Assembly: GCA_020847435.1 (NCBI GenBank)
Contig: JADLBX010000026.1
Span: 1-37,268 of the forward strand
DNA from: Anaerolineales bacterium
Lineage (GTDB): Bacteria > Chloroflexota > Anaerolineae > Anaerolineales > Villigracilaceae
DNA length: 37,268 nt
Direction of reading: 5' to 3'
A program made the translations under genes and the position numbers. Below the pieces are notes generated by a model. The model was given only the letters and a program-made list of their open reading frames with translations, did no database searches and was not told the DNA's origin. Below are positions 7,354 through 36,220 of this stretch, piece after piece (position 1 is the stretch's first letter; each line of letters opens with the position of its first letter).

Positions 7354-7438
7354 ACACGAAGAACACTACGGACACAAAGGGAGAAAAGAGGCTTGATTTG
7401 CGGGCGTTTTTCCTTCGTGACCTTTGTGTTTGAAATGG
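7354..7438. repeat. Nine-base-period inverted word array
   Basis: Left arm: ACACGAAGA, ACACTACGG and ACACAAAGG at 7354-7380, in perfect nine-base register. Right arm: CCTTCGTGA and CCTTTGTGT at 7412-7429, which are inverted forms of the same word, followed by a weaker third unit. A spacer of about 31 bases separates the arms. It is one of a class of such arrays in this window. Confidence 0.7.
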
Positions 7439-7617
7439 TTTTCCCGTTAAAAACGGTAGAACCAAAAAATAAAAAATTCCTGACAAACCCAGGAACCAAG
7501 ATCATGATCGAAGCTTATAAGTTGAAGGAAACGGTGGTTTTGTTTACAAAATTATTGGATGAAAGATTGCGAACTATCCCCCGTTTTATGTTCCATCAAA
7601 CGCCGCATTGAAAGAAT

Positions 7618-7694
7618 TGGCGGTCCCGACGGGATTCGAACCCGCGATCTCGGCCTTGACAGGGCCGCATGTTAGGCCGCTACACCACGGGACC
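7618..7694 (-). tRNA. tRNA-Asp (anticodon GTC), CCA encoded
   Basis: Read on the minus strand, GGTCCCG pairs with CGGGACC in the acceptor stem, followed by discriminator G73 and an encoded CCA. The anticodon stem CGGCC/GGCCG closes a seven-base loop CTGTCAA with anticodon GTC, so it decodes Asp codons. The T arm has the normal GGTTCGAATCC loop region, and the D arm is also normal. G73 is the usual Asp identity base. The gene lies between the L,D-transpeptidase gene and a strong terminator, and may be transcribed together with the transpeptidase gene. Confidence 0.96.
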
Positions 7695-7737
7695 ATCTAA
7701 CAAGCGGGCGAGAGTTTATCATGCAGAAATAGTTGTG

Positions 7738-8874
7738 TCAATACGCCCAATCATGATACAACGCGGGATCGGTGGGAGTTAAACCCGAGGGATCGTGGAC
7801 ATAAACCCAATCGCCTTCATGCGCCCAGTTAAAGAGCCAGTGCGAATCGCCGACGGAAAGGTTAATGCATCCGTGCGATTGAGGATACCCAAAGCGCGTC
7901 CGCCAGTAAGCGCCGTGCAAGGCGCGCGCTTTGTCGAAGTACATTGTCCATGGAACGTTATCGAGATAATAGAAATCGGACGGGTCGCTGTTCCGCATCG
8001 TCTCGATCTCTTTCTTTTGATAGATCTGGAACAGCCCCGGGCGCGTCCAGAACGGTTCGAGTCCGCTGGCGATGACGGTGGCGAAGACAAGTTCGGAATT
8101 GTCGTAAACGGCGAGCGTTTGTTCGGCTAAGTTGACATCAATCCAGCGACCGGTCGTCACGCCATCGGGAGGCGTTGTGGTCGGCGTGACAACGGCAACC
8201 TTGCGCGCTTCCACCCACTGGTTTGGACCGATCAGGTTCCAATCTGCGCCGTCCACGTTGACCGTGTCGTAGACTTGAAAAATATCCGTGAACGGGTTGA
8301 GATATTGTCCTGTTTCGGGTTTGTTGTAACCCGGCGCGCGCAGGATGGGAATATACTCAAACGCCCAGCCGAAAGCATTGACCGGCGCGGTCTTGAACTC
8401 GAGCCCTTGATACGAAGAGATTTCGGATACGCGCGCGCCTTTGCCGGGAATCCAACTTCCGCTTGGAAGCATGTAATAAATGCCGTGACCGGTATCCACG
8501 CGGTCAATGTAAGTAACGTAAACGAAGCCCGGCGCATAGGGCGCGCCGATTTCATTCCCTGCCGGCGAGTCCAGTACCGGCACATAATCCTCCTCAAGGT
8601 GGAAATAACGGTAGGGGAGCTGAGTCAGGCTGGGGTCCGGTTGGCGAAGCGAGAGCGGGCGCGGCGGGAACGTCAGCCCGAGCGCGGACATTTCCGTGAT
8701 GTAAACAGAGGGTCCCAACGGTAAACAGTCGCCCGGCGACGCGCGATAGACATCCGGCGCGCAGACGACTGCGCCGCTATCTTCCTCGGTGGCGGTTTGC
8801 GCAAACGCGGTCGGGCGAAGATCGAAACTGATAACCAGAAGGAGAATGGGCAGGGTTAAGATAATCTTTTTCAT
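7738..8874 (-). CDS. L,D-transpeptidase, YkuD domain
   Basis: A 378-residue exported protein that probably cross-links peptidoglycan or attaches proteins to it. An N-terminal signal peptide ends near residue 25 (AFAQ). The last 130 residues form the YkuD catalytic domain, with a conserved His (HGAYW) and the nucleophile motif SHGCINL with its Cys. The middle region, residues 60-230, contains two repeats reminiscent of small SH3-like wall-binding modules, but I cannot name them firmly. No ribosome binding site precedes the ATG. Instead a TATAAT lies nine bases upstream, which suggests a leaderless message. The start is bordered by the repeat element at 8893-8993. Confidence 0.9.
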   Translation of the reverse strand: MKKIILTLPILLLVISFDLRPTAFAQTATEEDSGAVVCAPDVYRASPGDCLPLGPSVYITEMSALGLTFPPRPLSLRQPDPSLTQLPYRYFHLEEDYVPVLDSPAGNEIGAPYAPGFVYVTYIDRVDTGHGIYYMLPSGSWIPGKGARVSEISSYQGLEFKTAPVNAFGWAFEYIPILRAPGYNKPETGQYLNPFTDIFQVYDTVNVDGADWNLIGPNQWVEARKVAVVTPTTTPPDGVTTGRWIDVNLAEQTLAVYDNSELVFATVIASGLEPFWTRPGLFQIYQKKEIETMRNSDPSDFYYLDNVPWTMYFDKARALHGAYWRTRFGYPQSHGCINLSVGDSHWLFNWAHEGDWVYVHDPSGLTPTDPALYHDWAY

Positions 8875-8883
8875 ATTGGCGGA

Positions 8884-8889
8884 ATTATA
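8884..8889 (-). promoter_or_regulatory. -10 box nine bases before the L,D-transpeptidase start
   Basis: Minus-strand TATAAT ends nine bases before the ATG at 8874, with no Shine-Dalgarno sequence between. No good -35 is visible at 17 bases. The message would start at or next to the start codon. Confidence 0.55.
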
Positions 8890-8892
8890 ATA

Positions 8893-8993
8893 GACCTCTT
8901 GTGAAAGTCATTTTCGCCACTGAGCACGCAGAGAAAAAGAGAATTTCTCAAAGGTCTCTGTGGCTGAGTAAAGGGTCACTTATGCAAGAGGTC
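8893..8993. mobile_element. MITE-like element with GACCTCTTG ends around a nine-base word array
   Basis: GACCTCTTG at 8893-8901 and its reverse complement at 8985-8993 bound 101 bases. The match continues imperfectly inward (TGAAAGT facing CATAAGT). Inside are GCCACTGAG and CACGCAGAG (8916-8933) and an inverted CTCTGTGGC (8956-8964), again nine-base words. There is no open reading frame and no clear target duplication. It lies directly upstream of the L,D-transpeptidase -10 box and may affect that promoter. Confidence 0.5.
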
Positions 8994-9049
8994 AAATGGC
9001 GATATTGTTTGCAATTCTGTCATGTAGCATTGCATTTGAATAGGTTGGC

Positions 9050-9078
9050 TTGACACTTTTTACCCCGTAATCTAAAAT
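9050..9078 (+). promoter_or_regulatory. Sigma-70-type promoter for the roadblock/V4R/regulator operon
   Basis: TTGACA at 9050-9055 and TAAAAT at 9073-9078 with a 17-base spacer. The transcript would begin near 9085, about 48 bases before the TTG start at 9133. Confidence 0.8.
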
Positions 9079-9132
9079 ATCTCCAACATCCAGCCGAACG
9101 ACACGGCTTGAAGCCTTTAGAGGAGGGCTGTT

Positions 9133-9504
9133 TTGTCTAAATCACGTACACAACAAATGGTGGACCGGCTGCGCGAACTGCAAGCCTCATCGCCCGACAT
9201 CGAAGCCTCCGCTGTAGTCAGCGTGGACGGTTTAAGCATCGCGTCTGCGTTGCCTCAAGGAGTTGAGGAAGACCGCGTCTCTGCCATGTCTGCCGCCATG
9301 CTTTCACTCGGCGAGCGCATCGCAACCGAATTGGGACGCGGCTCGCTGGAACAGGTGTACATCAAAGGCGAGAAGGGGTATGTTGTGCTGATGTCCGTCG
9401 GGGAAGAAGCGGTTCTGACCGCCTTGGCGCGTGAACAAGCCAAGTTGGGCTTAATCTTCCTTGATATGCGCCGCGCCACGGAAGACCTTTCGAAATTGAT
9501 CTAA
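9133..9504 (+). CDS. Roadblock/LC7 domain protein
   Basis: A 123-residue single-domain protein of the roadblock/LC7 (MglB-like) family, cytoplasmic, of a type that usually dimerises and regulates small GTPases or signalling partners. The sequence shows the family pattern: a helix, the strand SAVVSVDGLSIAS near 27-40, a Gly-rich turn, then YVVLMSVGEEAVLTALA and the final helix. The start is TTG at 9133, seven bases after a full AGGAGG site. No MglA-like GTPase is found nearby. Instead the gene is followed after 11 bases by a V4R gene and then a response regulator, all from one promoter. This suggests a self-contained signalling unit. Confidence 0.88.
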   Translation: MSKSRTQQMVDRLRELQASSPDIEASAVVSVDGLSIASALPQGVEEDRVSAMSAAMLSLGERIATELGRGSLEQVYIKGEKGYVVLMSVGEEAVLTALAREQAKLGLIFLDMRRATEDLSKLI

Positions 9505-9515
9505 CCGGAGATGCC

Positions 9516-10151
9516 ATGAGTCCCGTTCAAAAGGCTGGTCTGTACTACCCAAATAAATTTGGTCTGATCACCATCAAATCCCTCGAAGAAGTGATGGGCA
9601 AAAATGGCTTGAACGCCATCCTGAACCTCGCAGGTTTGAACAACTACATTGATAACTATCCTGCCGACAACCTCGACAAAGGTTTCGACTTCGGCGAGCT
9701 TTCCGCGATCGGCTCCGCGCTGGAGGATATGTATGGTCCACGCGGTGGACGCGGGCTTGCGTTGCGCGCCGGACGGGCAACCTTTTCGGACGCTTTGAAG
9801 AATTTCGGCGCTTTGGCGGGCGCGGCGGACCTCGCCTTCGTTGTCCTGCCTCTGCAGGCAAAATTAAAGATCGGCATCCCGGCTGTGGCAAAGATCTTCT
9901 CGCAGTTGAGCGACCAACATAGCACTGTCGAAGAAAAAGACACCGAGTTCATTTACACCATCCACAAATGCCCGGTCTGCTGGAGCAGGACGAACGCGGA
10001 TAAACCGGTCTGCTACCTGGCGACCGGCTTATTGCAAGAAGCCTTGAAGTGGGTCTCCGGTGGCAGTGAATTCCGCGTCAACGAATCCAAGTGTGTGGCG
10101 GTTGGGGACGCGGTCTGCGAATTTGTCATTCAAAAAGAACCGATCGCCTGA
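9516..10151 (+). CDS. V4R (4-vinyl reductase-type) domain protein
   Basis: A 211-residue cytoplasmic protein whose C-terminal 70 residues form a V4R domain. It has the Cys pattern KCPVC near 151, VCYLATGLLQEAL, KCVAVGD and VCEFVI. V4R domains are thought to bind small hydrophobic ligands and often zinc, and occur in XylR-type sensors, BchJ-like proteins and archaeal regulators. The N-terminal 140 residues carry a GLxxxxxxAGRA-type helical region seen in the longer V4R sensors. A CGGAG site precedes the ATG. The gene lies 11 bases after the roadblock gene and 11 before the receiver gene. A sensory role feeding the regulator is inferred from this order. Confidence 0.86.
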   Translation: MSPVQKAGLYYPNKFGLITIKSLEEVMGKNGLNAILNLAGLNNYIDNYPADNLDKGFDFGELSAIGSALEDMYGPRGGRGLALRAGRATFSDALKNFGALAGAADLAFVVLPLQAKLKIGIPAVAKIFSQLSDQHSTVEEKDTEFIYTIHKCPVCWSRTNADKPVCYLATGLLQEALKWVSGGSEFRVNESKCVAVGDAVCEFVIQKEPIA

Positions 10152-10162
10152 GCGGGGGCAAC

Positions 10163-11017
10163 GTGGCAGACGCCAAGGCGAAAATTCTCATTGTTGAGGA
10201 CGATCTCGATATCGCTGAAATGTTGAACGCGTATTTTCGCGTTCAGGGCTACGAAGTGTTCACCGTCAACTGGGGCGAGGACGGCGTGCGCGCGGCGCAG
10301 ACGGTTTTTCCCAACCTCGTGATCCTCGATATCCGCCTGCCCGACATTGACGGGTTTGAGGTGGCGCGGCGCATCCGTTCGGACCGGCGGACGCACGAGA
10401 TCCCCATCATTTTCCTCACCGAAAAAAGAGACCGCACCGATCGTTTGCAGGGCTTCGAGGTCGGCGCGGACGATTACATCACCAAGCCGTTCGACGTGCA
10501 GGAACTCCGCTTACGCGTGCGTAACGCATTGAAGCGCGTCAACCAATCTTCCCTCACCAATCCGGTGAGCGGACTGCCCGAAGGCGCGTTGGTGGATGAA
10601 CGACTCTCGGAGGTCGTTCATAAAAGCGGGCACTCCCTTTTGCATATTTCGATTTTGAATTTGCAAGCCTTCCGCGATTCGTATGGCTTTGTGGCGTCCG
10701 ACGATGTCTTGCGCGCCATCAGCATGATGATCCAAAACACTTTGAAAGAGACCGGCTCGCCGGAAGATTTTCTCGGTCATATCGGACCTTCAGATTTTGT
10801 CGCGGCGCTTTCGCCGGAAACGTTGCGCCCCTTTCAAGAGAAGATCAAAGCCCGCCTCGAACAATCGTTGGACTATTTCTATCCCCTCAGCGACCGCGAG
10901 CAGGCGTCGAAAATGGCGGGCAGGCTCGCCATCTTCGTGAATGAAATCCCCTCGGTGTATGGCAGGTTTTCAAGCGTTGACCAGCTCAAGAAGGAATTGC
11001 TGAGCAGAAGCCCGTGA
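10163..11017 (+). CDS. Response regulator with a degenerate GGDEF-like output domain
   Basis: A 284-residue protein starting at GTG 10163, seven bases after GGGGG. A longer frame from 10091 overlaps the V4R gene and is not favoured. Residues 6-120 are a receiver domain: acidic pocket E12-D13-D14, phospho-acceptor D56 in LVILDIRLPD, Thr86, and Lys108 in TKPF. Residues 133-280 align in layout with a diguanylate cyclase domain, but the GGDEF motif reads IGPSDF (207-212), and the metal-binding and product-inhibition motifs are not recognisable. It is probably not a c-di-GMP synthase; it may bind GTP or act as an interaction platform. It is the third gene of the roadblock-V4R operon. Confidence 0.85.
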   Translation: MADAKAKILIVEDDLDIAEMLNAYFRVQGYEVFTVNWGEDGVRAAQTVFPNLVILDIRLPDIDGFEVARRIRSDRRTHEIPIIFLTEKRDRTDRLQGFEVGADDYITKPFDVQELRLRVRNALKRVNQSSLTNPVSGLPEGALVDERLSEVVHKSGHSLLHISILNLQAFRDSYGFVASDDVLRAISMMIQNTLKETGSPEDFLGHIGPSDFVAALSPETLRPFQEKIKARLEQSLDYFYPLSDREQASKMAGRLAIFVNEIPSVYGRFSSVDQLKKELLSRSP

Positions 11018-11022
11018 ACGCG

Positions 11023-11052
11023 TAGCGCAAGAGATTATCTTGCGCTATTTTT
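11023..11052 (+). terminator. Rho-independent terminator after the response regulator
   Basis: TAGCGCAAGA and TCTTGCGCTA form a 10-bp stem with a GATTA loop, followed by five T residues. The right arm also encodes the last residues of rsmA, read from the other strand, so the terminator sits inside the end of the convergent gene. Confidence 0.85.
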
Positions 11053-13010: not shown

Positions 13011-13013
13011 GAT

Positions 13014-14069
13014 TTATTCCAACACGTATAGGATATTTGCCGGAACCGGCGTTATAAAATAGACGGTGACCCACGAACTCCACGCCACGTAATCGGCGTC
13101 GCTGTATGCCACGTCAATCCACGGTTTACCGACGCAGCCGCCGCACACATCTTCCACGGTTGCAAACCCGTAACCGGGAATATACAGCTGTTGCCCGCGC
13201 ATCATGCGGTACCAACTTAAACGCATGCCCGCCACGCCTTTTTGCGCGAGCGCGCCGCTCGCGGTTCGATTGGAACAACCTTCAATCCCCGCGCGGCACG
13301 GCGAGTAGGAGGTGATGTACATTTGCACCGCGCGCCAATACTCGATGCTTACGCCGTCCACCACTGCCGTCTTGATCTCGATCTTCGTGCCGTAGCCCAA
13401 CACGCGGTTCTTCGGCGGACGCACGATGGTTTCGTCTTCGGTGACGCGCATCGTTTCAACCCCGTCTTCATAGCGGACGCGGATGCGCTGAAGCGTCAGT
13501 CCGCTTTCGCCGGGTTGCAAAATTTGAGTCTGATCGAGCGCGATTTCGGCTGACTGGATCAATTCGCTGGTGAAGGGAATCGGCTTTTGCGCGAGCAAAA
13601 CGGATTCGCTGACGCGCACGACTTTGATCTGCCCGTCGGCGGGAAGCGGTTCATTCTCGGACGGGAGGCTGTAATCCAGCCCCATCAGCGGCATCCCCGC
13701 CTCAGCCAGCGCCGCGCCGACCGTCCCTGCGGAGGATTCGATCTGCATCGTTTTTCCATTCACAGTGACGGCGAGGCTGATCCTCGGAGCGGGGAGGTCG
13801 GTTGTTTCTGCCGCGCGGTGAATTTGCAAAGTAATTGGGTAATCCGTAATTGATAATTCGAGTGGAGCAGGGATTCCGTTTAGGAGGAGGCTGTCGTTGG
13901 GGCTGAGCGCGATCCCTGCTTCATCCAGAATCGCCGCAGGGACGCGTGCGTCGGTTTGCAGTGTGATAATTTCTTCACCGTCAATCACGGTGACAGTTCG
14001 TGGCGCGGACGGCTGGCAGGCGAAGAGGAAGAACGCGAACAAGAAAGCCAGCGCGTGTTTTGGTTTCAT
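13014..14069 (-). CDS. YabE-like lipoprotein with DUF348, G5 and 3D domains
   Basis: A 351-residue lipoprotein (lipobox FLFAC) with the layout of Firmicute YabE/resuscitation-factor-like proteins. It has two ubiquitin-like DUF348 repeats at about 25-85 and 95-160, a G5 region near 165-235 (VRYEDGVETMRVTEDETIVR), and a C-terminal 3D domain with NRTASG, YIPGYGFATVEDVCGG and WIDVAYSD. The acidic residues of the 3D motif suggest lytic transglycosylase-type activity on peptidoglycan. A heptad word array at 13831-13858 is read in frame within the first DUF348 repeat (SITDYPITLQ). A TATAAT lies six bases before the ATG and there is no Shine-Dalgarno site, so the message may be leaderless. It heads the operon with the LCP gene and rsmA. 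Confidence 0.85.
   Translation of the reverse strand: MKPKHALAFLFAFFLFACQPSAPRTVTVIDGEEIITLQTDARVPAAILDEAGIALSPNDSLLLNGIPAPLELSITDYPITLQIHRAAETTDLPAPRISLAVTVNGKTMQIESSAGTVGAALAEAGMPLMGLDYSLPSENEPLPADGQIKVVRVSESVLLAQKPIPFTSELIQSAEIALDQTQILQPGESGLTLQRIRVRYEDGVETMRVTEDETIVRPPKNRVLGYGTKIEIKTAVVDGVSIEYWRAVQMYITSYSPCRAGIEGCSNRTASGALAQKGVAGMRLSWYRMMRGQQLYIPGYGFATVEDVCGGCVGKPWIDVAYSDADYVAWSSWVTVYFITPVPANILYVLE
13831..13858. repeat. Seven-base-period word array inside a gene
   Basis: GTAATTG, GGTAATC, CGTAATT and GATAATT follow one another in exact register, all within the YabE-like gene. The words match those at 26668-26695 and in the arrays flanking the dehydrogenase gene. Confidence 0.65.
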
Positions 14070-14075
14070 GCGGCA

Positions 14076-14081
14076 ATTATA
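14076..14081 (-). promoter_or_regulatory. -10 box six bases before the YabE-like gene start
   Basis: Minus-strand TATAAT ends six bases before the ATG at 14069. The spacing predicts that transcription begins at or beside the start codon. No convincing -35 was seen. Confidence 0.55.
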
Positions 14082-14241
14082 AGTTAGGCTCTTGAATATT
14101 GCACCCGCATCCCACAGGGGCAGATTAACCGAACCTTAGCCGGAATAAATTTTTACCGCAACGACTCTCATGCTGTGTAAATCTTTGGCGCGGCGGTTTG
14201 GATTACAATCATTAAACAGAATATGTAGAAAGGAGACTTCA

Positions 14242-14692: not shown

Positions 14693-14768
14693 CACGGATT
14701 TCGCGGACTTCACGGATATTTTTGCGCTCTTATAAGTTCATCGGTGACGCCCGCGTGATCCGTGTCCC
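14693..14768. repeat. Nine-base-period inverted word array
   Basis: Left arm CACGGATTT, CGCGGACTT and CACGGATAT at 14693-14719. Right arm CGGTGACGC, CCGCGTGAT and CCGTGTCCC at 14742-14768, inverted versions of the same word. It fills most of the gap before the methyltransferase gene, which starts 41 bases later. Confidence 0.65.
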
Positions 14769-17570: not shown

Positions 17571-17612
17571 GTATCTTGTATCTTGTATCTTGTACCGCGT
17601 AACTCGTCCTCG
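17571..17612. repeat. Seven-base-period word array between rel and moeA
   Basis: Three exact GTATCTT units are followed by GTACCGC, GTAACTC and GTCCTCG, all in seven-base register (17571-17612). Only one arm is present. It ends just before the rel stop and lies where the -35 of a moeA promoter would fall. Confidence 0.75.
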
Positions 17613-24054: not shown

Positions 24055-24055
24055 C

Positions 24056-26570: not shown

Positions 26571-28283
26571 ATGGAATTCCAGCGCACTTTCTCTCGACAA
26601 CTACAATCGCTTCACGCGCGGACCCCGGACCGGGTCGCGCTCACCCTGCAATTCTCCAACGGGGATGATTTACCAATTACGAATTACCAATTACTCCTTG
26701 GCGCCAGTTCCTATGCGCGCGCTTTCGCGTCCGCTGGGATAAAATCTGGCGAAGTCGTCGTTCTGATTCTCCAGCATGGAGAGGACTTGGTTTACGCGTT
26801 CTGGGGCGCGATCTTGCGCGGGGCGATTCCCTCCATCATGCCGTTTCTCACGGAGAAATTATCGCCCGAACGCTATCGCGCGGATCTGTCCGCGCTGATT
26901 TCAGTGACACAGCCCGCCGCAATTGTTACTTATCCAGAATTTGAATCGGAAGCCCGCTCCGCGCTGAAGGAAGGGGATTCGGTTCGGAAGGTGGTCGTTT
27001 CCAACGCAATTGAAAAGGATGGCGCGTTGGACTTTGATTCGCTCGCGGGTTTTCAACGCAAGCCCGAAGACATCGTCATCCTTCAACATTCCTCTGGAAC
27101 AACGGGACTCCAAAAAGGGGTCGCGCTCTCGCATCGGGCGGTCTTCAATCAATTGGACGCGTATGGCAAGGCGTTGAACTTGACTGCGAACGATGTGATT
27201 GTGTCGTGGCTTCCGCTTTATCACGATATGGGATTGATCGCAGGTTTCGTTATGCCTATCCTCTCTGGCGTACATCTCGTTCTACAATCGCCCTTTGACT
27301 GGGTGCGCGCGCCGTACAAATTGATGCACGCGGTGACGAAATATCGCGGCACACTTTCCTGGTTGCCGAATTTTGCCTACAATTTCTGCGCGCAAAAAAT
27401 CCGCGACCGACATCTCGAAGGGGTGGATTTGTCCACGTGGCGCGCGGTGATCAATTGCTCGGAACCTGTCCGCTCGGAGAGTCATCTGGCGTTCTATGAG
27501 AAGTTCAAGGCGCATGGCTTGAAGCGCGCAGCGTTGCAAACGTCGTACGCGATGGCGGAAAACGTTTTCGCAGTGACACAAAGCCCGCTAGGAGGCGAGC
27601 CAACCGCCCTTGCGGTAGATCGAGAAGCGTTTATGTCGGAGCGTGTAGCCAAACTGGTAGACGAAGCCAATTTGGGCGGTAATTCAAACTCGGCGATGAA
27701 AATGATGTCGTCGGGTCGCCCGTTGGAAAACGTTCAGGTGAAAGTGTTGGACGAGAATCGAAATGAACTGCCCGAACGAGCGATTGGCGAACTTGCGCTC
27801 AAAAGCGATTGCATGTTGACTGGCTACTATCATCGCGACGAAGCAACTCAGCAAGCCTTTCACGACGGCTGGTATTTGACGGGCGATTACGGTTTTATCT
27901 CGGACGGCGAAGTGTACGTCTCGGGTCGCAAAAAGGATATGATCATCGTCGGCGGGCGGAACGTGTACCCGCAGGATTTGGAATCGCTGACGTACGAAGT
28001 GCCTGGCGTTCACGCGGGGAGGTCGGTGGCGTTCGGCATGTACAATGAAGAGGAAGGCACCGAGGAGGTCGTTGTCATTGCCGAAGTGGATTCGGACGAC
28101 CCAGCCGAGCAACAAAAAATAGCGGATGCCATCCGCCAGCACGTGACGAAAAACTCCGCCATCGCCCTGCGCTACGTCAAAGCTGTGGACTCGAAGTGGA
28201 TTCTGAAAACATCCAGCGGCAAAACAGCGCGTTCGGCAAACAAAGAAAAATTTTTACAGGAACTTGAACAGAGTACGCTTTAA
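26571..28283 (+). CDS. Fatty acyl-AMP ligase family enzyme
   Basis: A 570-residue adenylating enzyme that would activate a fatty acid as acyl-AMP and pass it to a carrier. Motifs: HSSGTTGLQKG (A3), WLPLYHDMGLI (typical of the FAAL branch), TSYAMAENVFA, LTGDYGFISDGEVYVSGRKKDMI (A7-A8 hinge) and a C-terminal Lys in ILKTSSGKTAR. The WLPLYHDMG motif and the neighbouring carrier favour FAAL over CoA ligase. The start is ATG 26571 after AGGAG; the open frame six codons longer lacks a site. A heptad word array at 26668-26695 is read in frame as PITNYQLLL near residues 35-43. Confidence 0.9.
   Translation: MEFQRTFSRQLQSLHARTPDRVALTLQFSNGDDLPITNYQLLLGASSYARAFASAGIKSGEVVVLILQHGEDLVYAFWGAILRGAIPSIMPFLTEKLSPERYRADLSALISVTQPAAIVTYPEFESEARSALKEGDSVRKVVVSNAIEKDGALDFDSLAGFQRKPEDIVILQHSSGTTGLQKGVALSHRAVFNQLDAYGKALNLTANDVIVSWLPLYHDMGLIAGFVMPILSGVHLVLQSPFDWVRAPYKLMHAVTKYRGTLSWLPNFAYNFCAQKIRDRHLEGVDLSTWRAVINCSEPVRSESHLAFYEKFKAHGLKRAALQTSYAMAENVFAVTQSPLGGEPTALAVDREAFMSERVAKLVDEANLGGNSNSAMKMMSSGRPLENVQVKVLDENRNELPERAIGELALKSDCMLTGYYHRDEATQQAFHDGWYLTGDYGFISDGEVYVSGRKKDMIIVGGRNVYPQDLESLTYEVPGVHAGRSVAFGMYNEEEGTEEVVVIAEVDSDDPAEQQKIADAIRQHVTKNSAIALRYVKAVDSKWILKTSSGKTARSANKEKFLQELEQSTL
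26668..26695. repeat. Seven-base-period word array inside the acyl-AMP ligase gene
   Basis: ATTTACC, AATTACG, AATTACC and AATTACT are in exact seven-base register within the coding sequence. The words match the arrays at 34578-34640 and 36200-36220. The encoded stretch lies in an N-terminal loop region. Confidence 0.7.
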
Positions 28284-28343
28284 CCGCTAAGCCCGCAAAG
28301 CGCGCAAAGTAAATTGCTCTGCGATCTTGGCGTTCTTCGTGGT
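28283..28343. repeat. Nine-base-period inverted word array
   Basis: Left arm ACCGCTAAG, CCCGCAAAG and CGCGCAAAG (28283-28309). Right arm CTCTGCGAT, CTTGGCGTT and CTTCGTGGT (28317-28343), inverted forms of the same word. The first unit begins on the last base of the ligase stop codon. Confidence 0.75.
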
Positions 28344-28353
28344 GGGTTAAAAA

Positions 28354-29951: not shown

Positions 29952-29956
29952 ATTTT

Positions 29957-30030
29957 AACCACAGATAAACGTGGACAAAAAGGACGCTGAATCTTTTTCA
30001 AATCAAAATTCATCTGTGTTTATCTGTGGT
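29957..30030. repeat. Ten-base-period inverted word array
   Basis: Left arm starts ACCACAGATA, AACGTGGACA, AAAAGGACGC (29957-29986). Right arm TCATCTGTGT and TTATCTGTGG (30009-30028) mirrors it. The outermost 14 bases pair well (AACCACAGATAAAC). It lies between the Lrp-type gene and the first aminotransferase. Confidence 0.7.
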
Positions 30031-30057
30031 GAATTAAATTCTATTGGAGGAATTTTT

Positions 30058-31356
30058 ATGTTTGGCGCTAAAACGCAATCGTTACAGAAACGCGCGATGG
30101 AGGTGATTCCGCTTGGGGTAAATTCCAATTTTCGATTTTGGGGCGAGGGGATCACGCCGTATGTCGAGAAAGCCAAAGGGGCTCATTTGTGGGACGTGGA
30201 CGGCAAGAAATATATTGATTATCGCATGGCGTTTGGTCCCATCATTTTAGGACATTCGTACGATGAAGTAGATCAAAAAGTGATCGAAGAAATTCAACGT
30301 GGATTGCTTTTCGCCATGACAGGCGAATTGGAAGTTGCCGTCGCTGAGATGATCGTCGAGATGGCGCCCGCTGTCGAGATGGTGCGATTAGCCTGTTCAG
30401 GCACCGAAGCGACGATGCACGCCATCCGTGTGGCGCGGGCGTACACAGGGCGGGATATTATTTTGAAGTTCGAAGGCAATTATCATGGAATGCACGACCA
30501 TGCGCTATGGTCCACCTACGCGCCAGCCGATGCGTATGGCAATTTCCGCAGTCCTATCCCTGTACCAGGGTCGTCGGGCATACCAAAATCCATGCGAGAG
30601 TTCATCATCACGCTCCCGTTCAACGACTTTGAAGGCTTTGAGCGTGTGATGCGTTCGTACGGCGAGCAGATTGCGGCGGTCATCACCGAACCGTGTCAGG
30701 GAAATTGTGCGGCGATCAATCCACAAGAGGGATTCCTGCAACTCATCCGCAAGAAGACCGAAGAATATGGCAGTGTTTTTATTCTCGATGAAGTGAAAAC
30801 GGGATTCCGAATCGCAAACGGCGGCGCGCAGGAACATTACGGGATCAAACCCGATCTTGCGACATATGCCAAGGCGTTGGGTAATGGTTATCCTATAGCC
30901 GCGTTCGGCGGGAAGAAAGAGATCATGTCCATTATTGGGCATGGAGTTGCGGTTGGCGGAACGTACACAAACAACAAACCTGGCGTCGCTGGCGCGTATG
31001 CCACGTTGAGCCTGTTGAAATCGAAACCGATTCTCAAAACGATCGCTCAGCGCGGACAAAGATTGATGGACGGCTTGAAGGATATTTTTGAAGAAAACGA
31101 TATTCCCGTTGTAATGACGGGCTATCCTGCCATGTTCTCGTTCTCGTTGGGCGTTGACAAAGTGATGAACCAGCGTGAATGGTCAAAGAGCAACCACGAC
31201 CTATATCTCAGTCTTGTCGAAAAAGCCATCGAGCGCGGCGTCATGCCCGATCACGATGCGCGTGAACCGTGGTTTATGTGTTATTCCCATACCGACACGG
31301 ATGTTGACGAGACGTTGAATGTGTATGCGGAGATTGTGAAAGAGGTAAAAAAGTAG
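30058..31356 (+). CDS. Class III aminotransferase, glutamate-1-semialdehyde aminomutase-like
   Basis: A 432-residue PLP enzyme starting at ATG 30058 after TTGGAGGA; an earlier in-frame ATG lies in the repeat array and is rejected. The PLP Lys is K272 in ATYAKALGNGYP, with the partner Asp in ILDEVKTGF (D244). The SGTEATMHAIRVARAYTGR block gives the phosphate and cofactor region. Overall it resembles HemL and related HemL-like aminotransferases, but no haem genes are nearby. The setting (Lrp regulator, second aminotransferase, semialdehyde dehydrogenase) suggests an amino-group transfer in amine or amino-acid breakdown. The stop codon lies inside the octamer array at 31353-31431. Confidence 0.88.
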   Translation: MFGAKTQSLQKRAMEVIPLGVNSNFRFWGEGITPYVEKAKGAHLWDVDGKKYIDYRMAFGPIILGHSYDEVDQKVIEEIQRGLLFAMTGELEVAVAEMIVEMAPAVEMVRLACSGTEATMHAIRVARAYTGRDIILKFEGNYHGMHDHALWSTYAPADAYGNFRSPIPVPGSSGIPKSMREFIITLPFNDFEGFERVMRSYGEQIAAVITEPCQGNCAAINPQEGFLQLIRKKTEEYGSVFILDEVKTGFRIANGGAQEHYGIKPDLATYAKALGNGYPIAAFGGKKEIMSIIGHGVAVGGTYTNNKPGVAGAYATLSLLKSKPILKTIAQRGQRLMDGLKDIFEENDIPVVMTGYPAMFSFSLGVDKVMNQREWSKSNHDLYLSLVEKAIERGVMPDHDAREPWFMCYSHTDTDVDETLNVYAEIVKEVKK

Positions 31357-31431
31357 ACACGTACACACGTAGACAAGTAGACACGTTACTTGTGTCCATG
31401 TGTACCTGTTTACCTGTCTACTTGTGTACAC
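31353..31431. repeat. Eight-base-period inverted word array
   Basis: Left arm: GTAGACAC, GTACACAC, GTAGACAA and GTAGACAC in exact eight-base steps (31353-31384). After GTTACTT the right arm has five inverted octamers (31392-31431) from GTGTCCAT to GTGTACAC. The first unit contains the stop codon of the upstream gene. The array ends 15 bases before the next start. Confidence 0.85.
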
Positions 31432-31446
31432 TATACGGAGAATCCT

Positions 31447-32769
31447 ATGACTCTTACTTCCAAAGAAATTATTGATATGAACAAGGAATTCACCTTCTTC
31501 TCCTGGTCCGTGCAGGGACAGGTGAATCCGATTCCCGTTACCCGTGCCGAGGGCGTGTACTTCTGGGATGCGGACGGGAAGCGCTATCTCGATTTTTCGT
31601 CGCAGTTGATGAACACCAACATCGGACACCAGCACCCGAAAGTAGTTAAAGCGATTCAGGATCAAGCGGCGAAGTTGACCTTCACGCATCCAGGCAACGC
31701 CACCGAAGCGCGTGGACTGCTCGGCAGGAAATTAGCCGAAGTCACGCCTGGCGATTTGAAGAAGACCTTCTTCACACTCGGCGGCGCGGAGGCGAACGAG
31801 AACGCTATCAAGATCGCCCGCTTCTACACGGGACGACACAAGATTCTTGCGCGCTATCGCTCCTATCACGGCGCGACGCACGGCTCGATGGCATTGACGG
31901 GTGACTATCGTCGTCTCGCTGTCGAACCCGTGATGCCAGGCGGAGTCCACTTCCTTGACCCGTTTTGCTATCGCTGTCCGTTCGGGCAGAAGCCAGAGTC
32001 GTGCAAGCGCGAGTGCATTTCGCATCTCGAAGAGGTGATCAAGTACGAAGGTCCCGACAAGATCGCCGCCATCATCATGGAAGGGGTGGTCGGCTCGAAC
32101 GGACTCATCGTCCCGCCCGATGATTACTGGCCCCGCGTCCGTGAGATTTGCGACAAATATGGAATCCTCCTGATCTCGGACGAAGTGATGAGCGGATGGG
32201 GACGCACGGGCAAATGGTTCGCCGTGGACAACTGGAACGTCGTCCCCGACATCATCACCACCGCCAAAGGCATCACCAGCGGATACGCTCCGCTCGGCGC
32301 GGTGATCGTCTCGGAGAAGATCGCCAAGTTCTTCGACGACAAATATCTCTATGCAGGTCTGACCTATAGCGCCCACGCGCTTTCCTGCGCGACTGCGTTG
32401 GCAACCATTGAAGTGTACGAAGAAGACAAACTCATCGAGAATGCCGCCACGCTCGGAAAATATCTTGGCGAAGCGTTGGAAGATATCAAAGAGAGACATG
32501 TTTCCGTGGGCGATGTGCGTTACATCGGCTTGTTCTCCACGATTGAGTTGGTGACAAACCGTGAGACAAAAGAAAGCTTCTCGCCCGCCGTCATGGCGGA
32601 GGTGGGGAAGGTCCTGCGCCAAAACGGACTGTTCACCTTTATCATGGCGAATAACATGGGAAGCATGGTCTTCGTCGTCCCACCGTTGTGTATCACGCAG
32701 GAGCAACTCGATGAAGGTCTCGCCATCGTGGAGAAGGCGTTGGAAGTGACGGATAAACAGGTGAAGTAA
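31447..32769 (+). CDS. Class III aminotransferase (omega-amino acid or taurine type)
   Basis: A 440-residue PLP enzyme, start ATG 31447 after GGAGAA. Landmarks: GGAEANENAIKIARFYTGR, SYHGATHGS, ISDEVMSGWGRTG with Asp245, and the PLP Lys K274 in TTAKGITSGYAPLGA. It resembles beta-alanine/taurine:pyruvate-type enzymes. Four Cys in a compact C-x2-C-x8-C-x3-C pattern (174, 177, 186, 190) might bind a metal. The product of an omega-amino acid would be a semialdehyde that the MmsA-type enzyme downstream can oxidise. The exact donor is not fixed by sequence. Confidence 0.9.
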   Translation: MTLTSKEIIDMNKEFTFFSWSVQGQVNPIPVTRAEGVYFWDADGKRYLDFSSQLMNTNIGHQHPKVVKAIQDQAAKLTFTHPGNATEARGLLGRKLAEVTPGDLKKTFFTLGGAEANENAIKIARFYTGRHKILARYRSYHGATHGSMALTGDYRRLAVEPVMPGGVHFLDPFCYRCPFGQKPESCKRECISHLEEVIKYEGPDKIAAIIMEGVVGSNGLIVPPDDYWPRVREICDKYGILLISDEVMSGWGRTGKWFAVDNWNVVPDIITTAKGITSGYAPLGAVIVSEKIAKFFDDKYLYAGLTYSAHALSCATALATIEVYEEDKLIENAATLGKYLGEALEDIKERHVSVGDVRYIGLFSTIELVTNRETKESFSPAVMAEVGKVLRQNGLFTFIMANNMGSMVFVVPPLCITQEQLDEGLAIVEKALEVTDKQVK

Positions 32770-32773
32770 GATT

Positions 32774-32801
32774 GAAGGTCAAGGATCGAAAGTCAAAGGT
32801 T
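32774..32801. repeat. Seven-base-period word array
   Basis: GAAGGTC, AAGGATC, GAAAGTC and AAAGGTT in exact register between the second aminotransferase and the membrane-protein gene. Only one arm. The next gene's GGAGG site follows nine bases later. Confidence 0.65.
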
Positions 32802-32818
32802 TAATTTCGGAGGAAACT

Positions 32819-33595
32819 ATGCAATATATACCCGCTATATCGCTCTTGGTTGCTTTTCTCGTAGTCTTTGTTGCTCTCCTTCGCAAATTTACCGGCGAGC
32901 AATTAGCGAATATTTTTACAGGCAAGAATTTTCTCTTGCTATCATCCCTGTTGCTGTTTTTAACTCTTTCAGTTGTTCATCTTTTTCAAAATCAGACATG
33001 GACTGCTGATGTTCTGAAAGTGATTGTTGGCGTGTTTGTTGGAGTAAGTGCAACTTTTGCGGCTGATTCGGGTAAAGGAAAGGGAGAACAAGGGGTAGAT
33101 ATGGGTTCCAGTAAATTAGGAGATAATGCCAAAGTTGCTGGTCGGGATATAAATGAGTTTATTGATAAAGTTTTCAACGATATAAAGAATGTACGTGGAG
33201 ACATTTCTCAAGTCAAAGATTCAGTAATTAAGCAATACCCAACTATTCATGACTCTTTGACCGACCTTGTGAAAGAATCGAAAGAATCTCGCCTCAGTAT
33301 ACAAAGACGGGTGTTGGTCGAACTTAAGTTAACCAATCCAGATTTGGTTAGACGTTTTGAAAGGATAGCCAAAGAGCGTTCAAATTTCAGTCTCATGGAC
33401 GATGTGTATGTTGATATGTTTGTGTCAAGCGGAGAGTTTATTCAAAAATTAAGACATAAGATAGATGAGTTTGAACAGACAGGCTGGGAGGTCGTTTCAA
33501 TCAGACTATCTGACAATTCCAATTTAGGTGGCTTTTACTTTGATTTCGTTATTCGCAAGTCTGTTCTTACAAAACAGACTCGCTCGTCTGCTTAA
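32819..33595 (+). CDS. Unknown membrane protein with a long C-terminal cytoplasmic part
   Basis: I do not recognise the family. The 258-residue protein has three predicted membrane helices at about 4-22, 37-56 and 64-83. A polar stretch follows with GSSKLGDNAKVAGRDIN near 97-113, then helical, coiled-coil-like sequence (114-180) and a mixed domain ending in SVLTKQTRSSA. The VAGRDIN word resembles short linkers seen in some NTPase- or effector-associated proteins, but that is weak. The DNA here and in the next gene is clearly more AT-rich than the flanks and uses different codons. The two genes interrupt the aminotransferase-dehydrogenase order, so they may be a horizontal insertion. GGAGG precedes the start. 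Confidence 0.65.
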   Translation: MQYIPAISLLVAFLVVFVALLRKFTGEQLANIFTGKNFLLLSSLLLFLTLSVVHLFQNQTWTADVLKVIVGVFVGVSATFAADSGKGKGEQGVDMGSSKLGDNAKVAGRDINEFIDKVFNDIKNVRGDISQVKDSVIKQYPTIHDSLTDLVKESKESRLSIQRRVLVELKLTNPDLVRRFERIAKERSNFSLMDDVYVDMFVSSGEFIQKLRHKIDEFEQTGWEVVSIRLSDNSNLGGFYFDFVIRKSVLTKQTRSSA

Positions 33596-33614
33596 TTTGC
33601 GTGGTTAGAGAATT

Positions 33615-34220
33615 ATGGAAGAGCTGTTTTTAGCCGCAATTTCATCCACATTGGATGCGCTTGATAAAACCACTTCTTGGATTGTTGTGGCTTTGTTGGC
33701 GACCGCTGTTTCAGGAATCCAACGGGATAAAAAAATAGTAGTTGGCGATTTTGAAATAAGTAGCAAATACGCTGGAGTTGTAACTTTTGCAATATTATGC
33801 GGGCTGAATTTTGAGATTTTACGGCTGTTGCAAAACCTTTTTTTTCTCCTAGCCAATGTTGGCTCAAAGTTCGAAAGCGCAAAAATCATAATCGTGACTC
33901 ATCCATGGATATTAAATCCCTTTGCACAAACATCGGGGATTCTTAGTCCTTTTACAGACAATCTCGGTCTAGCGTTTTTATTGCTGATTTGGTGGTTGGG
34001 ATTCCACACTGGCTTCTTTTTACACCAAACTACGAAGCGAGTATGGATAGGATATTTGTTATCGACGATATATTTAGTTTTAGGTTTAGTCAGCATGATT
34101 ACAATCATGTCGCTTATCGCACAAATCAATGAGGCTACCGCAATCATCAAACAAGCCTTGTTGTTTATTGCTATTCCAATTGGCGCATTTGGACTGCGGG
34201 TTTTCTTTCCAAAAAAATAA
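33615..34220 (+). CDS. Unknown multi-pass membrane protein
   Basis: A 201-residue protein with no family I can name. Hydrophobic segments near 20-36, 53-78, 118-138, 143-166 and 175-195 suggest four or five membrane helices. The N-terminus is acidic (MEELFLAAISSTLDALDK). The gene is AT-rich like its upstream neighbour and lies 19 bases after it, so the two form a pair. The ribosome binding site is weak (TTAGAGAATT). The pair ends before a repeat-rich gap. A two-component membrane system is possible, but nothing in the sequence shows it. Confidence 0.6.
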   Translation: MEELFLAAISSTLDALDKTTSWIVVALLATAVSGIQRDKKIVVGDFEISSKYAGVVTFAILCGLNFEILRLLQNLFFLLANVGSKFESAKIIIVTHPWILNPFAQTSGILSPFTDNLGLAFLLLIWWLGFHTGFFLHQTTKRVWIGYLLSTIYLVLGLVSMITIMSLIAQINEATAIIKQALLFIAIPIGAFGLRVFFPKK

Positions 34221-34247
34221 AAATATTGCCTGAAAATACTGAATCAT

Positions 34248-34290
34248 GAATTACCACTAACCAATTCTCCACTCCTCCAATCCTCTACCC
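34248..34290. repeat. Heptad-like word array before the dehydrogenase remnant
   Basis: GAATTAC, CACTAAC and CAATTCT, then eight-base variants CCACTCCT and CCAATCCT. The words match those before the intact dehydrogenase gene, at the same place relative to the coding start. Confidence 0.5.
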
Positions 34291-34296
34291 AGGTGA

Positions 34297-34338
34297 ACCA
34301 TCGAAATCCTCAACTACATCAACGGCGAATGGGCAAAA
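34297..34338 (+). pseudogene. Remnant of a second (methyl)malonate-semialdehyde dehydrogenase 5' end
   Basis: Read from 34302 this gives EILNYINGEWAK, close to [13 protein letters not shown] at the start of the intact gene. AACTACATCAAC is identical in both. The start position reads ATC where the intact gene has ATG. A stop-free continuation is lost as the sequence enters the multi-hairpin element at 34345. An older or duplicated copy of the gene appears to have been cut off after about 13 codons. Confidence 0.7.
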
Positions 34339-34344
34339 CGAAGA

Positions 34345-34446
34345 GCGGGGCTAAAGCCGCCTGCTCAGCACATGGAAGCCCTTCGGGCTGATGAGCGAGT
34401 CCGCTTTAGCGGACTTCCACGAACTGAGGCAGGACTTTAGTCCGCC
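34345..34446. repeat. Multi-hairpin repeat element with TAAA/TTTA loops
   Basis: Four small stems in a row: GCGG..CCGC at 34345-34360, AGCCC/GGGCT at 34377-34389, AGTCCGCT/AGCGGACT at 34398-34415, and GGACT/AGTCC at 34432-34443. Three of the loops are TAAA or TTTA. It is probably a composite dispersed repeat. Confidence 0.55.
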
Positions 34447-34471
34447 GAAACAGGACGAAAAATTCAACCCA

Positions 34472-34567
34472 AAACCTGACAGGTTTCCGCAGAGCCGTGA
34501 TTGATCAGGTCTCGCCCCGTTCGGAGAAGTCCGATTAACCCTCGTCACGATAAAACCTGTCAGGTTT
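34472..34567. repeat. Pair of AAACCTG-x-CAGGTTT palindromes
   Basis: AAACCTG A CAGGTTT at 34472-34486 and AAACCTG T CAGGTTT at 34553-34567, 81 bases apart. A partial copy is read in frame inside the PotD-like gene near 36614-36626. Confidence 0.6.
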
Positions 34568-34577
34568 GTGACTCAAA

Positions 34578-34640
34578 CAATTACCAATTACCAATTACCC
34601 AATCTCCAATCTCCAATCTCCAGTCTCTAATCTCTAGTCT
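34578..34640. repeat. Nine-unit heptad word array before the dehydrogenase gene
   Basis: Exactly nine seven-base units: three CAATTAC, three CCAATCT, then CCAGTCT, CTAATCT and CTAGTCT. The word changes stepwise while the period stays at seven. It is mirrored in inverse order by the array at 36154-36220 on the other side of the gene. Confidence 0.9.
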
Positions 34641-34657
34641 CTCTTTTAGGAGCAAAC

Positions 34658-36124
34658 ATGCAAATCCTGAACTACATCAACAACTCATGGACAAAATCCT
34701 CCTCCACCGAAACCCTCGACGTGATCAACCCCGCTACGGGGCAGGTCATCGCCAAGACTCCCGTCGGCACGAAAGCGGATGTCGAGTCAGCGGCGAAGGC
34801 GGCGCGGGAGGCGGCTGACGGTTGGCGCAGGACGCCTGTCAACGACCGCGTGCAGTATCTCTTCAAACTGCGAAACCTGATGCGTGAAAATGCGGATGAA
34901 ATCGCAAAACTGATCACGAACGAATGCGGCAAAACGTTTGAAGAGGCAAAAGCCGAAATGGTGCGCGCTTACGAAAACATCGAAGTGGCGTGCGGGATGC
35001 CGATGATGATGAAAGGCGAATTCGTCGAAGACATCGCCACAGGCATAGACGAGTTGATGATTCGCCAGCCCGTCGGCGTGTGCGCCACGATTGCGCCGTT
35101 CAACTTCCCTGGCATGATTCCGTTTTGGTATCTGCCGTACGCGCTCGCGGCAGGCAACACGTACATCATCAAGCCGTCCGAAAAAGTTCCGATGACAATG
35201 CAATTCATTATGAAACTCATCGAGCAGGTCGGTCTCCCGAAGGGCGTGGTCAATCTCGTCAACGGCGCAAAGGAAGTTGTGGACGGCATTCTCGAACACC
35301 CGTCCATTCGCGCGGTCACGTTCGTCGGCTCGACCAACGTCGCAAAATATATTTACGCCACCGCCGCCGCGCATGGCAAACGTGTGCAAGCGCAGGGCGG
35401 AGCGAAAAACCCCGTCATCATTCTTCCCGATGCGGATATGGAGATGGCGACAAAGATCGTCGCCGATTCAGCCTTCGGGTGTGCTGGTCAGCGCTGTCTG
35501 GCAGTTTCCTTCGCTGTGACCGTGGGCGACGCCAAAAACCACTTCACCGAATTGATCTGCGACGCGGCATCGTCAAGAGTTGTCGGCTACGGACTCGACT
35601 CAGGCGTGCAGATGGGACCCGTCATCAACGCCGCGTCGAAGAGCCGAGTCGAGTCGTTGATTGGACTCGGCGTCAAGGAAGGGGCAACCGTCCCTGTAGA
35701 TGGACGCGGGGTTTCCATCCAAGGGTACGAAGCAGGCAACTTTGTCCGCCCGACCATTTTGGCAGACGTGCCGCGTGGGAGCGAGATCGCCAAGACGGAA
35801 ATTTTCGGACCTGTGTTGAGTCTCATGCACGTTAGCACAGTGGATGAGGCGATTGAGTTGGTGAACAGCGGACAATATGGAAATCAAGCGAGTTTGTTCA
35901 CGTCGAGCGGAAGCGCGGCGCGGAAATTCCGATACGAAGCGGACGCGGGCAACATCGGAATCAACATTGGCGTCGCCGCGCCGATGGCATTCTTTCCATT
36001 CAGCGGCTGGAAAGATTCGTTCTTCGGCGACATGCACGGGCAGAGCATGGACGCGGTGGAATTTTTCACGCAGAAGAAAGTTGTGATCGAGAGATGGCCC
36101 AAGGAATGGAGTAGGAAATTTTAG
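34658..36124 (+). CDS. mmsA: CoA-acylating (methyl)malonate-semialdehyde dehydrogenase
   Basis: A 488-residue NAD-dependent enzyme of the aldehyde dehydrogenase superfamily that converts methylmalonate or malonate semialdehyde to propionyl- or acetyl-CoA with loss of CO2. Family marks: ILNYINNSW at the N-terminus, [31 protein letters not shown] (Asn149), [10 protein letters not shown], and the catalytic Cys280 in [12 protein letters not shown]. Note the absence of the Glu used by ordinary hydrolytic ALDHs, as expected for the CoA-dependent class. The gene is preceded by AGGAGCAAAC. It follows two aminotransferase genes, consistent with beta-alanine or related catabolism. Heptad arrays lie on both sides. 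Confidence 0.94.
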
Positions 36125-36153
36125 AGCAGAGAGAATTAGAGGAGTAGAGAATT

Positions 36154-36220
36154 GGAGACTAGAGACTGGAGACTTGTCCTGAGCGAAGTCGAAGGATTGA
36201 GTAATTAGTAATTGGTAAAT
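36154..36220. repeat. Heptad word array after the dehydrogenase gene, split by a dispersed repeat
   Basis: GGAGACT, AGAGACT and GGAGACT (36154-36174), then the dispersed repeat at 36175-36196, then AGTAATT, AGTAATT and GGTAAAT (36200-36220). Read this way it is the reverse complement, in the same order of word types, of the array at 34578-34640. Confidence 0.8.
36175..36196. repeat. Dispersed repeat with CCTGAG...TCGAAGGA core
   Basis: TGTCCTGAGCGAAGTCGAAG followed by GA. It shares its core, inverted, with 4939-4960, and lies inside a heptad array as if inserted there. Confidence 0.6.

Follow-up and report, generated by a model that had tools for sequence, protein, structure and literature searches.

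Short tandemly repeated repetitive (STRR) sequences are heptamer repeats of cyanobacteria. Comparable arrays have been described in other bacteria. The TAACTGA repeats of Beggiatoaceae are, in the available text of MacGregor 2015 (PMC4679880), intergenic heptamer arrays of 2–6 units; the GGGAATC arrays of Xanthomonas and Nostoc are reported by Rehm 2015 (PMC4692102) to vary in length and, in most cases, to have the same neighbouring genes in two relatives, and the same report mentions heptanucleotide repeats of Calothrix. Here we analyse a window of 37,268 nucleotides from an Anaerolineales bacterium of the Chloroflexota (GCA_020847435.1, contig JADLBX010000026.1), in which an initial annotation marked twelve sites of short words repeated at fixed periods of 7, 8, 9 or 10 bases and read them as a single class that length-measuring copying could explain. 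We propose instead, tentatively and at somewhat less than an even chance, that the sites belong to a number of distinct families of dispersed cis-elements that would act through binding factors. We regard the arrays as a variant of repeat kinds already known, with an unusual mismatch rule in one family, CGCnAAGnn.

Like STRRs and heptamer simple-sequence repeats, the arrays include degenerate heptamers in tandem, many per genome and mostly intergenic, and one word is the same as that of a cyanobacterial repeat; unlike STRRs, they also comprise 8- and 9-mer families, two-armed forms and in-frame genic copies. With the TAACTGA repeats they share a location between genes, occasional interruption by related units, high copy number per genome and occurrence in distant phyla, whereas PMC4679880 describes just one word, usually in forward orientation immediately before start codons, with related heptamers rarely repeated, and here there are many words of several lengths. 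With GGGAATC they share degenerate heptamers with conserved and variable positions and some inverted pairs; that word is G-rich and quadruplex formation was proposed for it in the excerpted report (PMC4692102), whereas the main words here lack such G runs.

Cyanobacterial STRRs had been named as the nearest idea, and for the heptamers this was borne out. At least 120 stretches in the genome collection contain the exact AATTACC 21-mer (CAATTACCAATTACCAATTAC); by title, 63 of the 80 stretches listed are cyanobacterial, 10 are Chloroflexi (including Anaerolineae names) and 7 belong to other phyla, with Bacteroidota, Gammaproteobacteria and candidate phyla among the matches listed, although several of these records are metagenome bins in which contamination is possible. 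Because the exact 21-mer occurs in many cyanobacteria, we assign the heptamer families to the STRR type, whereas GTAnACAn and CGCnAAGnn, which are not of length 7 and have inverted arms, are not filed there. The 80 loci, chosen by the heptamer, held no 8- or 9-mer family except one CACnnAGnn array, and the control held one as well. A free-position rule shared with the cyanobacterial AATTAC arrays was considered and rejected, since positions 1 and 3 vary at 30% and 23% and position 2 nearly equally at 18%, and the pattern itself leaves positions 1 and 3 free. The heptamer had no match in plasmids, where a simple-repeat filter may hide it; among viral contigs, the 8-mers occur in 3 stretches and the 9-mers in 1. 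Among ten Chloroflexi loci compared with the own genome, the nearest named matches were uncultured Chloroflexi records (77.8% over 1,400 bases and 71.9% over 2,619 bases). Among the titles listed in literature searches on Anaerolineae and Chloroflexi, none concerned these arrays, which does not establish that no such paper exists, and the papers listed for the words themselves were unrelated.

The arrays are not one system, since unit length is a property of each word family. We scanned 837,268 bases of the own genome (G000; 3,045,765 bases in 74 contigs, 88.6% complete, the window being its contig C26), namely 40 stretches of 20 kb plus the window, against three phase-keeping shuffles. At lags 7, 8, 9 and 10 there were 41, 21, 6 and 1 strong segments (score ≥12), compared with 0.0 in shuffles at each of these lags; lags 4, 5, 11 and 13 gave 0, and lag 12 and the multiples 14, 16, 18, 21 and 24 were also raised (6–11 segments). 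At a lower threshold, with coding and intergenic assignments that here and below rest on home-made gene calls, intergenic and coding counts were 41 and 29 at lag 7 (shuffles 0.0 and 0.4), 30 and 4 at lag 8 (0.0 and 0.8), 11 and 12 at lag 9 (0.2 and 3.6), and 4 and 0 at lag 10 (0.4 and 1.6). The expected excess over shuffled sequence is thus present for periods 7, 8 and 9. Little is left of period 10 beyond its single segment, and the 10-mer CACnGATnAA formed no three-unit array in 2,217,268 bases of four genomes.

In those same bases, 15 word patterns were surveyed with their reversed forms as controls (0–2 arrays). Arrays of at least three units numbered 52 for GTAnACAn, 48 for nAnTTAC, 51 for nAnTCTC, 22 for GAnAATTn, 58 for CGCnAAGnn, 27 for TACTnCG and 19 for CACnnAGnn, so that the claim of a separate word for each site gives way, at genome scale, to a short shared vocabulary. 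CAATTACCAATTACCAATTAC (≤2 mismatches) had 107 overlapping matches in G000 and 0 in its reversed control. The common family differs from congener to congener: counting overlapping matches with ≤1 mismatch, four-unit GTAnACAn was found 108 times in G000, 277 times in G015 and 3 times in G011, and three-unit CGCnAAGnn 125, 2 and 63 times, with controls of 0. G024, from another genus, has 106 three-unit CGCnAAGnn matches. The AATTAC 21-mer is present in 17 of 18 genomes of the genus and patchy beyond (25 of 41 genomes overall, including the own, in a set with one genome per species), and in three family relatives the reversed control was the higher (G018, 0 vs 6; G021, 9 vs 10; G023, 0 vs 3).

The families may be sorted into three groups, each with a word of fixed core, fixed length (7, 8 or 9) and few free positions. 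(i) One-armed heptamers and octamers (nAnTTAC, nAnTCTC, GAnAATTn and others) form an STRR-like group, intergenic, with heptamers also in frame in conserved genes: MutS2, PheT and the AMP-binding enzyme of the window. The MutS2 gene (G000 C12:55057-57495, locus L003) carries five different in-frame arrays at positions outside its Pfam domains. (ii) GTAnACAn 8-mers lie mostly right after stop codons, often with two arms. In the G000 sample plus 1.6 Mb of the congeneric genome G012, 45 such arrays were in co-directional gaps, 11 convergent, 1 divergent and 3 coding, at a median of 16 bases past the stop codon (divergent depletion p=0.00014). (iii) CGCnAAGnn 9-mers have cores able to pair across arms and free positions kept mismatched; the same bases held 51 co-directional, 2 convergent, 10 divergent and 4 coding arrays.

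Inverted arms, which had been ascribed to many sites, characterise the last two groups and not most heptamers. Among neighbours within 80 bases, counted as word-then-complement : complement-then-word : same, the ratios were 14:0:1 for GTAnACAn and 20:2:2 for CGCnAAGnn, from which we conclude that the order of arms is fixed; the other values were 2:0:0 for CACnnAGnn, 2:2:0 for TACTnCG, 0:1:0 for nAnTTAC, 0:0:2 for nAnTCTC and 0:0:0 for the remaining patterns. The 8-mer hairpin pattern had 130 overlapping matches in 13 of 18 congeneric genomes (control 0).

Part of the evidence for the reading as cis-elements comes from comparing arrays in place between G000 and G012, the latter a single contig of which 1.6 Mb was sampled. 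Aligned blocks of at least 600 bases are 66–94% identical (mostly 75–92%). An array was counted as retained if at most 30% different in the other species; in 330,815 aligned bases, 33 intergenic G000 arrays were covered in G012, of which 23 were retained, 7 were more than 30% different and 3 were lost. In the retained arrays, the core (the fixed letters of the word) differed at 22/479 positions (4.6%) and the wobble (its free, variable letters) at 48/180 (26.7%); the reciprocal comparison, with 25 of 30 covered G012 arrays retained, gave 21/497 (4.2%) and 56/198 (28.3%). Without the 30% filter the values were 77/643 (12.0%) and 89/247 (36.0%) for G000 arrays, and 47/554 (8.5%) and 65/221 (29.4%) for G012 arrays. 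Isolated single copies of the same words, unfiltered, differed at 203/1424 core (14.3%) and 99/626 wobble positions (15.8%), aligned intergenic DNA at 0.162, and four-fold sites of 182 genes at 8402/31599 (26.6%; codon positions 1+2, 4.8%). By group, core and wobble differences were 6/149 and 10/54 for one-armed arrays, 14/240 and 23/81 for GTAnACAn, and 2/90 and 15/45 for CGCnAAGnn; the contrast was weaker for TACTnCG (6/39 and 5/16). Conditioning on intact cores in G000 could halve the expected core change, and 4.6% is still below half the four-fold rate (p=4e-10). Low core change together with near-neutral wobble change suggests purifying selection, acting in place, on the cores of those arrays that are retained. 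Roughly one covered array in four was, however, lost or strongly changed. Conservation of cores in place points to constraint on existing sites. The separate families with fixed cores and free letters, one of them with arms whose variable letters avoid pairing, suggest that the arrays are under selection as DNA or RNA and did not arise by slips of copying in the recent past.

Should this reading hold, the cores would be repeated contact points for putative nucleic-acid-binding factors, whose action would fall mainly in the gaps that separate co-directional genes and would probably concern the transcript, several weak units jointly giving firm binding; for the 9-mer element, the recognised form would be a folded strand with obligatory bubbles. 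Both the function and the spread of the arrays are inferred.

Several observations weigh against the cis-element reading. Heptamers lie within genes, where a regulatory role is hard to see, and coding arrays show a weaker contrast (core 14/125, wobble 11/50). In AATCGnn the contrast is reversed (core 6/20, wobble 1/8). The orientation of one-armed arrays relative to genes is weakly biased (54/84, p=0.012); Rho-type C-rich sites were considered for the arrays and set aside with this weak bias. The comparison is uneven, arrays being filtered at 30% difference and single words unfiltered, and 82 more intergenic G000 arrays lie outside any alignment, in addition to the 10 changed or lost. The patterns were chosen after part of the same genome had been read, hence not blind, and since they leave the wobble free, counting letters is not enough to tell fixed positions from variable ones. 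Turnover is also high for functional sites: across 162 orthologous gaps, arrays (p≤0.01) were found in 29 G000 and 24 G012 gaps (1.6 expected each), forming 12 homologous pairs, 4 unlike pairs and 21 flagged in one species only, 7 of which have a stretch at least 68% similar in the other species. Finally, in one element described below (C12:24840) the interior was rewritten at once, which point mutation under constraint does not explain.

The CGCnAAGnn element of about 59–73 bases consists of three units, a short AT-rich loop and three inverted units, and exact hairpins of this form number 147, spread over 14 of the 18 congeneric genomes, against 0 in the reversed control. We compared facing wobble letters, seven sites per hairpin, in 70 distinct hairpins drawn from 75 listed of the 147; four of the 75 repeat one sequence, and G011:C12:309436 was left out (by eye, 1/7 pairs). 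Watson-Crick pairs occupied 8.2% of the 490 sites, compared with 30.9% expected from random partners and 25.7 ± 1.7% from oriented shuffles, 0/5000 of which were as low. There were 0 pairs in 32 hairpins, 1 in 36 and 2 in 2, i.e. at most one in 68/70, and four extra hairpins from fetched loci had 0, 1, 1 and 3. All four pair types were depleted three- to five-fold and all mismatch classes enriched except C.A/T.G, whereas off-register unit pairs across arms showed no significant depletion and some slight enrichment (largest z=+2.8). Folding energies of natural stems, compared with stems given a swapped partner arm, were −27.8 vs −32.9 kcal/mol as RNA and −16.4 vs −21.9 kcal/mol as DNA; natural stems are therefore less stable. 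Shared descent as the whole cause was rejected, as the rule survives expectation-maximisation (EM) orientation of the arms and removal of look-alikes (44 hairpins, 7.1% vs 29.4 ± 2.6% expected), and so was the idea that the arms are copies of each other, since the variable letters avoid matching across them.

One explanation is that the hairpins are a structured element, in which selection would keep the cores complementary and the free letters non-complementary, leaving bubbles of 1 and 2 bases at regular intervals, like the rungs of a ladder, for a putative factor to read; as part of it, most copies within a genome, not being near-copies, look as if new ones were made with the core held constant and the other letters left to vary. 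We regard this as decidedly unlikely, its odds being lowered by the closeness of hairpins to their nearest neighbours (10.2 of 14 letters among distinct hairpins vs 8.9 in independent draws) and by look-alike pieces of about 30 bases. Alternatively, arrays and hairpins might arise by mutation, and copies whose units or arms match too well might be deleted by slippage or palindrome processing, so that the mismatched ones survive. The avoidance of cross-arm matching would follow from this, as would the observation that adjacent CGCnAAGnn units agree somewhat less than expected (0.21–0.25 vs 0.27–0.35); likewise the hairpin on an IMG/VR contig (L311:139-201, CGCAAAG) has nearly matching arms, which means that the mismatch rule is not general. 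Such loss leaves unexplained why matching cores are kept and conserved in place, and in 42 hairpins of the 8-mer family, one from each listed place, pairing is avoided weakly (z=−2.2 at position 4 and z=−1.0 at position 8). We consider a survivor effect unlikely.

The two-armed 8- and 9-mers might also be mobile repeats resembling repetitive extragenic palindromes (REPs), their REPIN arrangements or miniature inverted-repeat transposable elements (MITEs), moved by a single-strand transposase (HUH, Y1). The core constraint would then reflect the needs of the transposase, and the required mismatches would be recognised bulges. In the available text of PMC8266576, TnpAREP activity on E. coli REPs needs a mismatch bulge, and restoring the stem abolishes or severely lowers it; the same text describes another REP group of perfect palindromes in which a mismatch lowers activity. 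As in REP/REPIN elements, CGCnAAGnn is a dispersed palindrome in many copies (147 hairpins) with fixed polarity (20:2). Mismatches are kept in its stem, which differs from theirs in consisting of three 9-base words with seven letter-free mismatch positions. Y1_Tnp matches were found in 31/31 genomes searched, 30 of them above the family cut-off; one CGCnAAGnn hairpin exists in five identical G000 copies that share 127–142 bases and are unlike the other listed copies; and arrays are gained and lost between species. On the other hand, two-unit matches of four families were absent within 800 bases of the 3 Y1_Tnp genes examined of 5 in G000, and distinct hairpins of the same genome are no more alike than those of different genomes (5.77 vs 5.82 of 14 letters). 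Only 3 of the 17 hairpin pairs sharing at least 11 letters lie within one genome; 5 are G000/G012 pairs, perhaps orthologues. Even decay would be expected after insertion, yet the cores are kept in place. We therefore judge this origin possible and rather unlikely.

A further possibility is renewal, in which an element is at times overwritten by another copy, through ectopic conversion or re-insertion, leaving uniform cores and a scrambled wobble; overwriting from a pool could mimic core conservation. The clearest case is the hairpin C12:24840-24905, in which, between G000 and G012, 0/36 core and 10/18 wobble positions changed and the loop was replaced, while the flanks (150 bases, measured with either arm) are 3.0 and 6.6% different. 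Pieces of about 30 bases, 93–97% alike to its rewritten half, occur in other genomes, and wobble change exceeds that of isolated words in GTAnACAn (p=0.0075) and CGCnAAGnn (p=0.0061). Against this, the best match to the element at another locus is at most 88% alike over most of its length (40 candidates were scored in the richest genomes), clear outliers relative to their own flanks were seen in 2/20 array stretches (C12:24879 and C45:57642), and overall wobble change is near the four-fold rate. Renewal seems quite unlikely. Swapping of unlike arrays at one site is weakly supported: it appears in single alignments at 28284, 31353, C45:1650 and C45:17115, and unlike pairs numbered 2 vs 0.7 ± 0.8 expected under a stricter test (p=0.15) and 4 vs 1.45 ± 1.1 under a sensitive one (p=0.04), and given these values we treat it as suggestive. 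At the G000 array gaps C44:34480 and C32:122640, the G012 counterpart is a hairpin of the CATTGCGAGG...GAAGCAATC type.

The arrays might also be ordinary simple-sequence repeats made by polymerase slippage, as discussed for bacterial heptamers. According to PMC4679880 and PMC4692102, one survey found heptamers to be the commonest of the long classes in most genomes, and slippage was proposed for them. Long regular arrays do exist: G015 C3:625743-625893 is a run of about 19 units of GTACACAG/GTATACAG, unlike the short arrays elsewhere and likely a real tandem expansion. Adjacent units are also alike beyond expectation at position 5 of CACnnAGnn, perhaps from two sub-words, and at position 5 of TACTnCG. 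In 6/8 families, however, adjacent units are no more alike in their free letters than independent draws (differences up to 0.02), so most families show no sign of recent slippage. A small set of words turns up again at many sites and in different phyla, and two families have inverted arms of fixed polarity. Slippage as sole cause is contradicted here, and we consider this explanation highly improbable. A single class from length-measuring copying is likewise not supported, with no search made for a reverse-transcription element: period is set by family, adjacent units are mostly not alike, arms are not copies of each other and cores are conserved in place. Among these alternatives, we tentatively prefer the reading as several families of cis-elements.

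For the twelve sites themselves (Table 1), 85-base stretches were compared with 1000 shuffles each in two periodicity tests (three-unit and lag-run; floor p=0.001), and the p values are uncorrected for the choice of the sites by eye. The claimed period was significant at 8/12 sites, where at least one of the two tests reached the floor, and marginal at 2/12 (13831 and 29957), and at 2/12 (8916 and 32774) it was not significant.

Table 1 Sites of the window and identical hairpin copies elsewhere in the genome; paired p values are three-unit / lag-run.
Feature	Position	Strand	Remarks
Two-armed 9-mer array, CACnnAGnn-like	7354..7432	.	arms ~7354-7381 and ~7412-7432; period 9 (three units with 6 identical columns), p=0.001 / 0.212; fold z=−2.9
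Two-armed CACAGAG-like stretch, without significant own period	8916..8964	.	p=0.912 / 0.057; fold z=−1.9
Degenerate AATTAC heptamers	13831..13859	.	marginal, p=0.027 / 0.262; inside gene 13014-14069 (−), G5-domain protein (Pfam G5)
9-mer CACGGATTT array with short inverted arm (~14752-14764)	14693..14764	.	period 9; p=0.001 / 0.016
GTATCTT x 3.4, intergenic	17571..17594	.	Tandem Repeats Finder (TRF) 100%; p=0.001; array missing from the equivalent G012 gap (alignment)
AATTACC heptamers (claimed site 26668)	26670..26694	+	p=0.001; in frame in AMP-binding enzyme gene 26571-28283; identical sequence in G012
9-mer hairpin, CGCnAAGnn family	28284..28347	.	p=0.001; fold z=−4.1; adjoins conserved terminator-like hairpin; period-7 two-armed array at the same place in G012
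Two-armed 10-mer CACAGATAAA stretch between two genes	29957..30031	.	marginal; p=0.359 / 0.031 (lag 10); fold z=−2.8
Two-armed GTAnACAn 8-mer array	31353..31429	.	p=0.001; fold z=−4.5; flanked on both sides by class-III aminotransferase genes; two-armed heptamer array there in G012
Claimed heptamer array, not significant	32774..32801	.	p=0.183 / 0.629
Composite heptamers: CAATTAC x 3, then CAATCTC/CAGTCTC	34578..34642	+	p=0.001; precedes aldehyde dehydrogenase gene
Heptamers GGAGACT, then AGTAATT	36154..36221	−	p=0.001; after aldehyde dehydrogenase gene; 36201-36221 listed among CAATTACCAATTACCAATTAC matches
Five identical hairpin copies	G000 C8:78666, C10:63668, C12:76187, C13:43718, C18:67101		

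An Rfam search of the window returned transfer RNA only. Apart from the arrays, the window contains at 34345-34449 a repeat of about 105 bases that is dispersed and has numerous matches throughout the genus. Copies lie on both sides of a Y1_Tnp gene in G000 (C32: 105876-105987 and 106496-106616 around 106072-106416), which is one of the three examined there, and by coordinates also in G010 (C86: 1037-1142 and 1626-1749 around 1173-1517). Since its copies bracket Y1_Tnp genes, this repeat looks like a REPIN-type element with its transposase. Positions 36222-36360 and 34471-34568, which adjoin the arrays at 36154 and 34578, match other loci in several congeneric genomes.

Bacterial heptamer arrays are an old observation for which a role has seldom been tested, and slippage has been one explanation so far. 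Provided that cores are conserved in place and the wobble changes at close to the neutral rate, the arrays can be tested as regulatory elements, and the mismatch rule of the 9-mer family is a precise structural prediction, namely that the hairpin must not be perfect. The heptamer word common to Chloroflexota and cyanobacteria raises the question of whether one common factor reads both.

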